A DNA stretch of 64,000 nucleotides. Origin: Micrococcaceae bacterium Sec5.7. Lineage in GTDB: Bacteria > Actinomycetota > Actinomycetes > Actinomycetales > Micrococcaceae. Below, in pieces: positions 47,449 through 50,436 of the stretch. The translations under genes were made by a program, and so were the position numbers. How positions within the stretch are numbered: position 1 is the first letter of the stretch; the number at the start of each line of letters is the position of its first letter. The stretch is from the NCBI GenBank assembly GCA_039636785.1, contig CP144169.1, forward strand, positions 4,154,001 through 4,218,000, read 5' to 3'. The notes under the pieces were generated by a model that was not told where the DNA came from, did not search any database, and was given only the letters and a program-made list of their open reading frames with translations.

Positions 47449-47928
47449 ATGATCATTGAGAAAATCCTCGGCAACCTGCACGAACTGCCGGCGCCCGAGG
47501 CCTACGCCGGTCTGCACCACGAAAAGGTGGTGCTGCCAAGCGCCCAGCTGGTCAAGCGCATCCAGCGCGTCACCACCGACCACGGCCAGGAACTGGGCAT
47601 CCGGCTGCCCGCCGGATCCGGCGACCTGCGCGACGGCGACATCCTGCACGTGGCCGGAACGAACATGATTGTGGTCTCTGTGCTGCCCACCGACGTCCTG
47701 GTGATCGCGCCGCGCACCATCCACGGGATGGGCGTGGTGGCGCACTCCCTGGGCAACCGGCACCTGCAGGCCCAGTTCTTCGACGCATCCTCGGAGTACG
47801 GCGCCGAGGTGATGGTGTGCCAGTACGACCACACCGTGGAGGACTACCTCAAACACGTCGGAGTGCCCTACAACCGCCAGGAGCGGGTCATGCCCGTGCC
47901 CTTCCGCCATGCCGAACACAGCCACTGA
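47449..47928 (+). CDS. ureE: urease accessory protein UreE
   Basis: UreE is the nickel metallochaperone that hands nickel to the UreG/UreF/UreD complex. The 159-residue protein begins MIIEKILGNL with CAGGAGG upstream. It has the central YGAEVMVCQYDHTVEDYL segment, and its C-terminal tail is short with only a few His (RHAEHSH), so it lacks a long His-rich nickel store. The ureF start lies inside its last codons. Confidence 0.93.
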   Translation: MIIEKILGNLHELPAPEAYAGLHHEKVVLPSAQLVKRIQRVTTDHGQELGIRLPAGSGDLRDGDILHVAGTNMIVVSVLPTDVLVIAPRTIHGMGVVAHSLGNRHLQAQFFDASSEYGAEVMVCQYDHTVEDYLKHVGVPYNRQERVMPVPFRHAEHSH

Positions 47929-48742
47929 TCCGGCGTCCGGTCGAGCCGCGTCCGCTGGTCGAGCCGCGTCCGCTGGTCGAGCCGCGTCCGCTGGTCGAGC
48001 CGCGTCCGCTGGTCGAGCCGCGTCCGCTGGTCGAGCTTGTCGAGACCAGGACGCGATTTCGACAGGCTCAATCAGCGGGTCCTATCAGCTGGCTCTCCAG
48101 CAGCTGACGGACTCTGCTCTGCCCACCGGGGCTTTTGCGCACTCGCTTGGCTTTGAGACCTATATTGACCGCGGGCTGGTGCATGATGAGGATTCGTTCG
48201 GGGTGTGGCTGGCCGCCTTTATTGGTCAGCAGCTGAGCTACTCGGATGGGCCGGCCATCCGGTTCCTATACGAGGGGCACGGCCTCGAGGAGCTGGACAC
48301 CCTGATGACCGCGCAGCTGCTGCCCCGCCAGCTCCGGGAGGCCAGCGTCAAGATGGGCACCCGGCTGCTTGAGATCGGCAGCGAGGTGTTTCCGTCCGCA
48401 GGGCTCGAGGAATACCGGCAGCTGGTGACCGAAGGCCGGGCCGCCGGCCATCAGCCGCTGGCGTTCGCCGTCGTCGCGCGCTCATTGGGCGTCCCGCTGG
48501 CAGAAGCGCTCGCCGCGTACCTTTTTGCCGCCGTCACCTCGCTGACCCAGAACGCCGTCCGTGCCATCCCGCTGGGGCAGAACGCCGGCCAGCGGCTGCT
48601 GCGCGGGGCGTCCGACGACGTCACTGCCGCCGTCGAGCGCGCCAGTCACCTGACGCCGGACGACTTCGGGGCCGTCAGCCCCGGACTGGAGATTTCGCAG
48701 ATGCGGCACGAGCGCCAGCGCGCCCGCATGTTCATGAGCTAA
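47909..48742 (+). CDS. ureF: urease accessory protein UreF with repeat-encoded N-terminus
   Basis: UreF gates GTP hydrolysis by UreG during nickel insertion. The core starts near residue 59 with YQLALQQLTDSALPTGAFAH and runs to the usual C-terminus (ISQMRHERQRARMFMS). The first 58 residues are unusual. Five in-frame copies of an 18-bp unit encode GRAASA five times (residues 11-40), and a REP palindrome encodes the next stretch. ATG 47909 overlaps ureE and has a poor SD. No better start lies between the repeat and the core. 277 residues as read. Confidence 0.88.
   Translation: MPNTATDPASGRAASAGRAASAGRAASAGRAASAGRAASAGRACRDQDAISTGSISGSYQLALQQLTDSALPTGAFAHSLGFETYIDRGLVHDEDSFGVWLAAFIGQQLSYSDGPAIRFLYEGHGLEELDTLMTAQLLPRQLREASVKMGTRLLEIGSEVFPSAGLEEYRQLVTEGRAAGHQPLAFAVVARSLGVPLAEALAAYLFAAVTSLTQNAVRAIPLGQNAGQRLLRGASDDVTAAVERASHLTPDDFGAVSPGLEISQMRHERQRARMFMS
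47939..48028 (+). repeat. five tandem copies of GGTCGAGCCGCGTCCGCT
   Basis: Five perfect 18-bp units run head to tail, followed by a diverging sixth (GGTCGAGCTTGTCGAGACC). They start 10 bp after the ureE stop and lie in the ureF frame. Because 18 is a multiple of 3, gain or loss of a unit adds or removes six residues without breaking ureF. Confidence 0.95.
48024..48078. repeat. REP-like palindrome at the end of the tandem array
   Basis: CCGCTGGTCGAGCTTGTCGA on the left is answered by TCGACAGGCTCAATCAGCGG on the right with an 11-base or so loop. The GTCGAGC...GACAAGCTCGAC type of palindrome is a common intergenic repeat in Arthrobacter. Here it is translated within the UreF N-terminus. Confidence 0.75.
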
Positions 48743-48760: not shown

Positions 48761-49378
48761 ATGTCTGAACCCATCAAGATCGGCATCGGCGGCCCGGTAG
48801 GCGCGGGCAAGACCCAGCTGGTGGAACGCCTCACCCGGCACATGAGCCGGGAAATTTCCATGGCCGCCATAACCAACGACATCTACACCATCGAGGACGC
48901 CAAAATCCTGGCCGCGAACGGCATCCTGCCGCTGGACCGGATCATCGGCGTCGAAACAGGCGGCTGCCCGCACACGGCCATCCGCGAAGACACCTCGATG
49001 AACGATGCGGCGATCGAGGAGCTCAAGAAGAGGCACCCGGACCTGCAGGTGATCTTCGTGGAATCCGGCGGCGACAACCTCTCCGCCACCTTCAGCCCCG
49101 AGCTTGTGGATTTCTCCATCTACATCATCGACGTGGCCCAGGGTGAGAAGATCCCGCGCAAAGCCGGCCAGGGCATGATCAAGGCCGATCTCTTCATCAT
49201 CAACAAAACGGACCTCGCGCCGCATGTTGGCGCGGATCTGACGGTGATGGAGCGGGACTCGCGCGAATTCCGGGGCGAGAAGCCGTTCTGCTTTACGAAC
49301 CTCAAGACTGATGAGGGGCTGGACCAGGTGATCGAGTGGATGCGGCGTGATGTCCTGATGCTCGACCTGGCGTCATGA
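48761..49378 (+). CDS. ureG: urease accessory GTPase UreG
   Basis: This GTPase delivers nickel to apo-urease. The P-loop is [29 protein letters not shown] and the nickel-binding [19 protein letters not shown] (Cys-Pro-His) are conserved, as are [16 protein letters not shown] and [13 protein letters not shown]. The 205-residue length is standard. CAGGAGG precedes the ATG. The ureD start overlaps the stop. Confidence 0.97.
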
Positions 49379-50436
49379 GCACGACGGCGGTTCCGGTAGT
49401 CGAGCTTGTCCAGACCCATGCGCCGGGGTCGGGTCCGGCGGCTTCGCCGGATTTGGGGCCGTGCCCGTCCCCAGCCGCTCCCAACCCTCGCAAGCTCGAG
49501 TCGGGGCCCTCGCGGCCGTGGGCCCATCGCGGTGCCCACCACGCCGCGGCCCCCAAATCCGGCCTCGCCGCCTCAGCGGTCAAGTCACCTATGGGGGAGC
49601 TCACCTTACTGGTCGCCGTGCGGGGCGAGCGGACAGTTGCCGTGCATCAGTTTCATCGGGGCGCCTTGCGGGTTCTTCGGCCGCATTACTTGGATCAGAG
49701 CGGGCAGGTTTGTTATGTGATGATCAATCCTGGCGGGGCTTATCTGGGTGCCGATTTGTACCTGATTGACGTTGAAGTGGGGGACGGGGCGAAGCTGCTT
49801 CTGACCACTCAGTCGGCCACGAAGATCTACCGGACGCCCGGGTCGTTTGCCGAGCAGCGGATGCGGTTGAAGCTGGGGGAGGGCTCGCAGCTGGAACTTG
49901 CTCCGGACCAGCTGATTGCCTACCGCGAGGCCAGCTACCGGCAGAACACCCACATCACCGTCCACCCGTCGTCGAGCCTGGTGATGGCAGAGGTCATCAC
50001 GCCGGGCTGGTCGCCCGACGGCGACTCTTTCAGGTACGAGGAACTCCGGCTGCGCAACGAGATCCACGTGCAGACGGGGCACTCCGACGGCGCGGCGGAA
50101 GCAGAGCTGCTGGCCCTGGACAACCTGCTGATCCGGCCGCCCGTCACGGACGTCACCGGCATGGGCTTTATGGAGGGGTTCAGCCACCTGGGCTCGCTGA
50201 CGGTGGTGGATCCGCGGGTGGACCAGGCACTCGCCGACGAACTCCACCAGCTGACCGCAGGTCATGACGCGTACACCGGTGTGTCCCTGACCGCCAGCAT
50301 CGCCGGGACCACCGGCCTCGTCCTGCGGTCCCTTTCCAACAGCACCGAAGAGCTCAACCGGCTGCTCGGCGCCTGCACCAGCCTCCTGCGGGCACGCTGG
50401 TACGGCCAGGCGCCGCTCAACTTAAGGAAGTACTAA
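49375..50436 (+). CDS. ureD: urease accessory protein UreD with an element-encoded N-terminal extension
   Basis: UreD is the scaffold that holds UreF and UreG on apo-urease. The family core begins near [20 protein letters not shown] and includes [36 protein letters not shown] and [14 protein letters not shown]. Reading from ATG 49375 (ATGA overlap with ureG) gives 353 residues, about 70 too many. The extra part is a translated palindromic repeat (49393-49572). ATG 49591 would give a normal 281-residue protein but has no SD. Either start could be used. Confidence 0.88.
49393..49572. repeat. palindromic repeat element inside the ureD 5' region
   Basis: The left arm GGCGGCTTCGCCGGATTTGG (from 49437) is matched by the right arm CCAAATCCGGCCTCGCCGCC (to 49572), about 90 bp apart. 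The interior is GC-rich and partly self-complementary. A half REP, GTCGAGCTTGTCCAGACC (49399-49416), lies at the left end and matches the element beside ureF. No stop codon occurs in the ureD frame across it. Confidence 0.75.

Follow-up and report, generated by a model that had tools for sequence, protein, structure and literature searches.

The ureF gene of Micrococcaceae bacterium Sec5.7 carries an 18-bp tandem array and a REP-type palindrome ahead of the UreF core, and the question raised by this locus is why such repeats stand in frame at the front of a urease gene. The preliminary description of this DNA had offered a choice between selection for a linker and a very recent insertion. Here we analysed the insert within its own genome and compared the ureE-ureF junction across the relatives, along with the ureG-ureD junction of the same operon.

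Anatomy of the urease operon

The window is the whole stretch of DNA that was analysed, 64,000 nucleotides of contig CP144169.1 (positions 4,154,001 to 4,218,000 of the forward strand), and its ORFs and domain matches give a urease operon of the order ureA-B-C-E-F-G-D. The parts which are needed here are listed by their positions in the window.

47449..47928, + strand: ureE (PF02814/PF05194, NF009757 UreE); its final codons (HAEHSH stop) overlap the ureF start
47909..48742, + strand: ureF, 277 aa (PF01730 UreF, residues 91-232); its start codon lies 20 nt before the ureE end
47939..48028, + strand: five perfect 18-bp units, GGTCGAGCCGCGTCCGCT, translated as GRAASA x5
48024..48078, + strand: REP-type palindrome, a single long hairpin with ~22-nt arms, in frame; the REP core 48029-48047 lies inside it
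48083..48739, + strand: UreF core, from Tyr59, where the first predicted helix begins
48761..49378, + strand: ureG (TIGR00101)
49375..50436, + strand: ureD; its start overlaps the ureG stop (ATGA); PF01774 from residue 115, with a long N-terminal region before it
49398..49416, + strand: another copy of the REP, with 2 mismatches, read in frame as VELVQT within the UreD N-terminus
49447..49562, + strand: U-element (second palindromic element), long-loop form, in frame in the UreD N-terminus; found by a core match, its ends by direct reading

The UreF domain PF01730 was matched above its gathering score (144 bits against 23.3), and the named UreF relatives are nearly all from Arthrobacter, Pseudarthrobacter and Paenarthrobacter, in keeping with the chromosome of an Arthrobacter-like actinobacterium. 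Both junctions have the layout of coupled gene pairs, with ureF starting 20 nt inside ureE and the ureD start and ureG stop sharing ATGA.

The array and the palindrome in this genome

Tandem Repeats Finder reported the array at 47939-48036 with a period of 18, 5.4 copies and 100% match; the five perfect copies occupy 47939-48028 and are followed at 48029-48047 by a REP copy, GGTCGAGCTTGTCGAGACC. The exact unit occurs five times genome-wide, every time in the ureF array, and allowing two mismatches adds one further genomic match, which is at chance level (three in the reversed control). The REP pattern was found with up to two mismatches at 45 genomic sites, against one in the reversed control, and with up to three mismatches at two sites in the window, against 0.04 expected. 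Direct reading shows that the array units are not complete REPs, each being the 5′ arm of the palindrome (its first 13 nt) plus 5 nt.

REP elements are mobilised by a RAYT transposase. The palindrome at 48024-48078 resembles them in that it folds as one long hairpin and has many similar copies in the genome, namely the 45 sites, and differs from them in that it is not extragenic but sits in the ureF ORF; the element is therefore called REP-derived here and not a typical REP locus. The preliminary description rightly took the repeat to be one that is normally intergenic: among 30 loci examined out of the 45 sites, 28 had no gene-like ORF over them, by a crude filter which missed ureF and on loci some of which overlap, and the remaining two were L014, under a gene-like ORF, and ureF itself. 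The RNA fold of the whole insert with its array was not unusual when compared with shuffles (z -1.58). In the same genome, outside the window, ten REP copies are set at an exact 44-bp spacing (G000:C1:3031516-3031930, loci L033-L036).

Reading frame of the insert ahead of the UreF core

The ORF at 47909-48742 reads MPNTATDPAS-(GRAASA)x5-GRACRDQDAISTGSISGS-Y59..., in which the palindrome is translated as GRACRDQDAISTGSISG and the UreF core follows from Tyr59. Thus the five perfect copies and the REP palindrome do stand in frame ahead of the core, as residues 11-57, and the earlier remark that units of six codons preserve the frame is supported. The only in-frame ATG, GTG or TTG within 47909-48079 is the one at 47909, and since no other standard start precedes the core, translation with standard starts must begin there. 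UreF could otherwise start from the non-standard ATT at 48056 or ATC at 48071, which are both in frame, the array then being a translated or untranslated leader; in favour of this, the relays described below have their UreF start a few codons ahead of the core. ATT and ATC are rare start codons, the window has no overlapping stop of the relay kind, and the frame from 47909 continues into the core, so that we regard such a start as very improbable.

Residues 1-56 are predicted to be disordered, having pLDDT below 50 and no secondary structure in an AlphaFold model made with 53 aligned UreF proteins. The matches to UreF structures of the PDB begin at residue 61 in three of four cases and at residue 52 in the fourth (6jc4).

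The preliminary description laid stress on the frame having stayed open through the repeat. The frame is indeed open, but none of the three forward frames of the 18-bp unit contains a stop, and 66% of 300 dinucleotide shuffles of a spacer of this length also remain open; openness in one genome is thus weak evidence, and we rejected it as evidence standing alone.

The ureE-ureF junction in the relatives

The comparison used 214 ureF loci, made of 134 genomes with a match among the 150 searched in the genus (the window's own genome included) and the 80 best of 201 named loci; the two sets overlap and were collapsed to 153 distinct junctions. Each species is represented by one genome in the collections, the rows are related so that their counts are not independent trials, and the tree of ureF cores is a quick one in which 58 of 150 inner branches are open. 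One ureF of the sample, L244 (G131), contains two TGA codons in frame; the assembly it comes from is listed at 7% contamination.

The ATG embedded 20 nt inside ureE is retained in 151 of the 153 junctions. It is supplied by a UreE His codon, which is CAT in 151/153, whereas among the remaining His codons of the final 110 UreE codons CAT accounts for 106 of 1120, and on this comparison the embedded start codon looks selected. The two junctions that lack ATG at -20 (L111, L116) are both short, and all 89 junctions having a long spacer (>45 nt) carry it.

The 153 junctions fall into 72 fused in frame, 78 relays, the two without ATG and one out of frame (L213); a relay is a junction in which the ORF from the embedded ATG crosses the spacer and ends at a new ureF start, and relay rows were chosen in part by the presence of that ATG. 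The fused junctions comprise 60 short ones, which place merely 7 to 19 residues ahead of the UreF core, and 12 with long inserts; these 12 and 77 of the relays make up the 89 long spacers, the one further relay having a short spacer (L057). For four of the 12 long fused junctions (the window, L044, L048 and L165) the upstream ATG is the sole start before the core, and the other eight have an internal in-frame ATG, GTG or TTG, so a later UreF start is possible in those eight.

The stop of the mini-ORF and the new in-frame ureF start are no more than 5 nt apart in 76 of 78 relays, and mostly they overlap: 69 have NTGA (for L103, with GTG at NTGA and a later ATG, the nearer start was used for this count), five have TARTG, one lies at -5 and one at +3. 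The exceptions are L092 and L094, where the relay ORF overruns the start of the core by 29 nt. The gap of L094 is 104 nt, 2 nt less than the 106 of the fused L104 and L130, and this difference may reflect a recent frameshift or an error in sequencing. L213 is the sole junction that has the embedded ATG and has lost the frame; no in-frame ATG, GTG or TTG was found there from the ureE stop to the core, and it is either a real exception or a sequence error.

A family-wide search matched 49 of 120 genomes, and in the 24 loci examined from other genera (L299, L302-L324) the gaps were 1-59 nt with one of 93, and ATG at -20 was in frame in 11. The short coupled ureE-ureF junction is probably ancestral on this distribution.

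Frame bookkeeping

When the last 14 nt are excluded, the frame from the embedded ATG has a stop in none of the 89 long spacers, and the other two frames have stops in 14 and 51 of them. Spacer length is divisible by 3 in 74 of the 78 relay rows, and 30 of the 34 distinct lengths are so divisible, as an NTGA relay close to a fixed core would require. Such lengths would also suit a read-through frame from UreE to UreF, a candidate that was rejected as this frame has stops in many species, unlike the frame from the embedded ATG, which has none in long spacers. The relay frame was open in 77 of the 77 relays examined (all but the short-spacer L057), and 52.0 were expected from shuffles.

On the ureF-core tree there are at least 57 changes of relay length and at least 25 changes of state among fused-short, fused-long and relay, with the fused-short class of 63 rows containing L213 and the two rows that lack ATG at -20. 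Many of these events would seem to have needed luck to keep the frame, though the counts are not independent.

These figures bear on whether the insert could be neutral and recent, in frame by chance, with the frame unselected and the ureF start maybe downstream. The five identical copies do make the expansion itself look recent, the unit is open in three forward frames, and REP-arm pairs with other spacings occur elsewhere in the genus, where 33 of 52 spacings outside ureF are multiples of 3. Such an insertion accounts poorly, however, for the retention of the start codon through the genus, for a relay frame kept over so many length changes, for in-frame REP inserts in five relatives and for a window that has no standard downstream start, and we consider it quite unlikely.

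REP inserts in the relatives: frame against peptide

A REP is fused to UreF at six junctions: the window, L038 (identical to L067, Arthrobacter sp. Bi83), L044, L112, L143 and L165. L038, L112, L143 and L165 have in-frame arrays of the REP arm at the same site as the window, and L044 has a diverged REP with one additional arm. Two relay junctions also hold a REP, read as GRACRD in L096 and as VEPVET in L117. The REP-bearing junctions are spread over the tree (L037 and L038 lie next to each other, their branching being open), which calls for several insertions or for one old insertion that was lost many times. Of the fused inserts the one at L165 (G128) is the longest: its 289 nt contain three copies of the REP and two short arrays of 18-bp units, and it puts 103 residues before the core without an alternative start.

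The spacing of the units was 18 (36 across a diverged unit) at ureF in five of the five genomes with exact unit pairs, with sub-blocks 66 or 75 apart, and elsewhere in the same five genomes the other REP-arm spacings run from 15 to 39. As proof of coding, the 18-bp period was set aside as weak alone, given a spacing of 13 at L044 and the share of multiples of 3 among spacings outside ureF.

A selected linker would mean that the GRAASA-repeat tail has a function on UreF (solubility, partner binding or tuning of urease) and that its copy number is selected. The recurrence of in-frame GRA-type arrays in several relatives speaks for it, as does the use of one frame, GRACRD, by all six fused REP inserts. 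Out-of-frame copy numbers were sought among these six, and in five of them all arm spacings are multiples of 3, again in favour of a linker; the sixth, L044, has the 13-nt spacing and yet is in frame overall. Against a linker stand the 60 of 153 junctions that are short and fused with hardly any tail, the spacer peptide that is unattached to UreF in 78 junctions, and the predicted disorder of the tail with its lack of secondary structure. Moreover, the sites filled by the U-element are read in two frames: of the 89 long spacers 36 have the element in frame a and 41 have it in frame b, the other 12 lacking it or not having been scored, so that the peptide of the spacer is not conserved and the frame is. 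We judge a selected linker to be unlikely, and the unbroken frame from ureE to ureF points instead to translational coupling.

The choice put forward in the preliminary description is thus not supported, since the junctions indicate a site with a history of insertion, repeatedly filled by palindromes (REPs or the U-element), where the frame was conserved and the peptide was not. The sequences themselves show the anatomy of the insert, the retention of the start codon and of the frame, and the absence of a conserved peptide.

The U-element

The U-element, with the core CGGTGCCCNCCACNCCGC, is a low-copy hairpin at a few operon junctions: ureE-ureF, ureG-ureD, grpE-dnaJ, glpK-leuS and after argB. 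When 50 short-loop copies from ureE-ureF junctions (L052, L181 and 48 more) were aligned, they gave one hairpin of 22 pairs, and 11 of these 22 show pair-keeping changes on both sides; this covariation could also be produced by correction of quasi-palindromes at the DNA level and is no proof of RNA function. Some urease U-elements have a loop longer by 57 nt. Six urease junction loci were compared with Rfam, and none was matched at an E of 0.1 or below.

A covariance model, which misses long-loop U-elements such as the ureD copy of the window, was run on 24 chosen genomes, 22 from the genus and two from other genera; it gave 31 matches, spread over 15 genomes, and none in the two from other genera. 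The neighbours were inspected for 13 non-urease matches (L333, L334, L337-L339, L343, L346-L349, L351, L352 and L354), of which five lie at grpE-dnaJ, six at glpK-leuS, with lower scores of 39.8 to 47.6 bits, and two downstream of argB and probably ahead of argD; the names grpE, dnaJ, glpK, leuS, argB and argD are a reading of the translations. L293 and L295 are further U-element loci.

The ureG-ureD junction

A table of 151 rows was made for ureG-ureD, L144 and L231 being dropped as the motif was not found. The ureD frame is open through the inserts in 140 rows, its start overlapping the ureG stop in 134 and lying 2 nt after it in six. Nine of the other 11 rows have a relay ORF that ends on an overlapping start, and L096 and L222 have none. 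To judge from these sequences, ureG-ureD behaves like ureE-ureF.

The UreD N-terminus of the window (49375-49640) holds both the REP copy and the U-element in frame. This region is highly variable across the relatives; translated REPs (VELVET, GFRQAQSP) were seen in 9 of 151 rows by a strict pattern which misses the window's own ureD copy, and U-elements apparently occur in it in both orientations.

Proposed mechanism

The array would derive from a REP palindrome just past the ureE stop, by tandem amplification of its 5′ arm, and since ureF starts 20 nt upstream within ureE, an insert after that stop lies in ureF. Coupled re-initiation would be hindered by a stable hairpin that separates a stop from the following start, and a palindrome past the ureE stop would uncouple ureF unless an elongating ribosome melts it. 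In the window, a ribosome would start at the ATG embedded in ureE, read the array and the palindrome as a disordered tail of 58 residues and continue into UreF; in other species a mini-ORF would cross the hairpin and end on the new ureF start by an NTGA relay. A constraint imposed by the elongating ribosome would entail retention of start and frame, two interchangeable solutions and indifference to the peptide.

We hold it probable that hairpin inserts are tolerated here only if an elongating ribosome crosses them, and that the array of the window is the fused case. We infer that ribosomes do cross these hairpins, that coupling is needed for ureF and that the tail is neutral in function. The process that would otherwise be impaired may be coupling or Rho-dependent polarity.

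Relation to known systems

A survey of REPs states that they seldom overlap coding regions, and its table of analysed genomes includes Arthrobacter livingstonensis (PMC12306157). The element of the window is like REP elements in being a short palindrome in dozens of copies that lie mostly outside gene-like ORFs, and is unlike them in its position within an ORF and in the fivefold amplification of part of its 5′ arm.

The palindromic elements of Rickettsia are described as inserts of ~150 bp in frame within unrelated protein genes (PMC10969869). The insert of the window likewise stands in frame within a protein gene, but the element and the host differ, the inserts are N-terminal and sit at coupled junctions, and a relay alternative exists; the two are likened by description, as analogues only.

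For coupling, the sources give NTGA and -1 spacings as the commonest coupled motifs (PMC12548453), the highest efficiency at spacings of -4 to +3 nt and NTGA as the commonest overlap (PMC12548453, PMC6728339). The relays use these classic -4 (NTGA) and -1 (TARTG) spacings and differ in that a mini-ORF without a conserved peptide bridges a palindrome-filled spacer.

Stable structure right after a stop lowered re-initiation in a synthetic operon, and stable post-stop structures are depleted at close gene pairs within operons, according to PMC7518266. Like these ribosome termination structures, as they appear in that source, a stable hairpin just past a stop is expected to hinder re-initiation; unlike them, the hairpin of the window is within a translated frame, which would relieve the block.

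Among the open-access literature matches listed, with subscription papers and preprints outside the scope of the search, none reported a REP-derived UreF tail or a ureE-ureF relay ORF. In-frame palindromic inserts (Rickettsia) and NTGA coupling are already known, and the UreF tail and the relays are a variant of them.

Significance

On balance we lean to the general statement that in Arthrobacter and its kin structured palindromes enter coupled junctions only as translated sequence, either fused to the following protein or as relay mini-genes whose sole role is to take the ribosome past the hairpin. The relay mini-genes have 12 to 95 codons, mostly about 50-80, and if the statement is true, tens of species hold small genes whose frame is conserved and whose peptide is not. 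They would provide a clear example of small ORFs conserved as frames and not as peptides, and annotators may trim such tails or overlook the relay mini-ORFs. The ureE-ureF junction would then be a natural and many times repeated experiment in translational coupling, in which hairpins were placed between the same two genes in dozens of species and where the bookkeeping of the frame seems to indicate the requirement of the ribosome.
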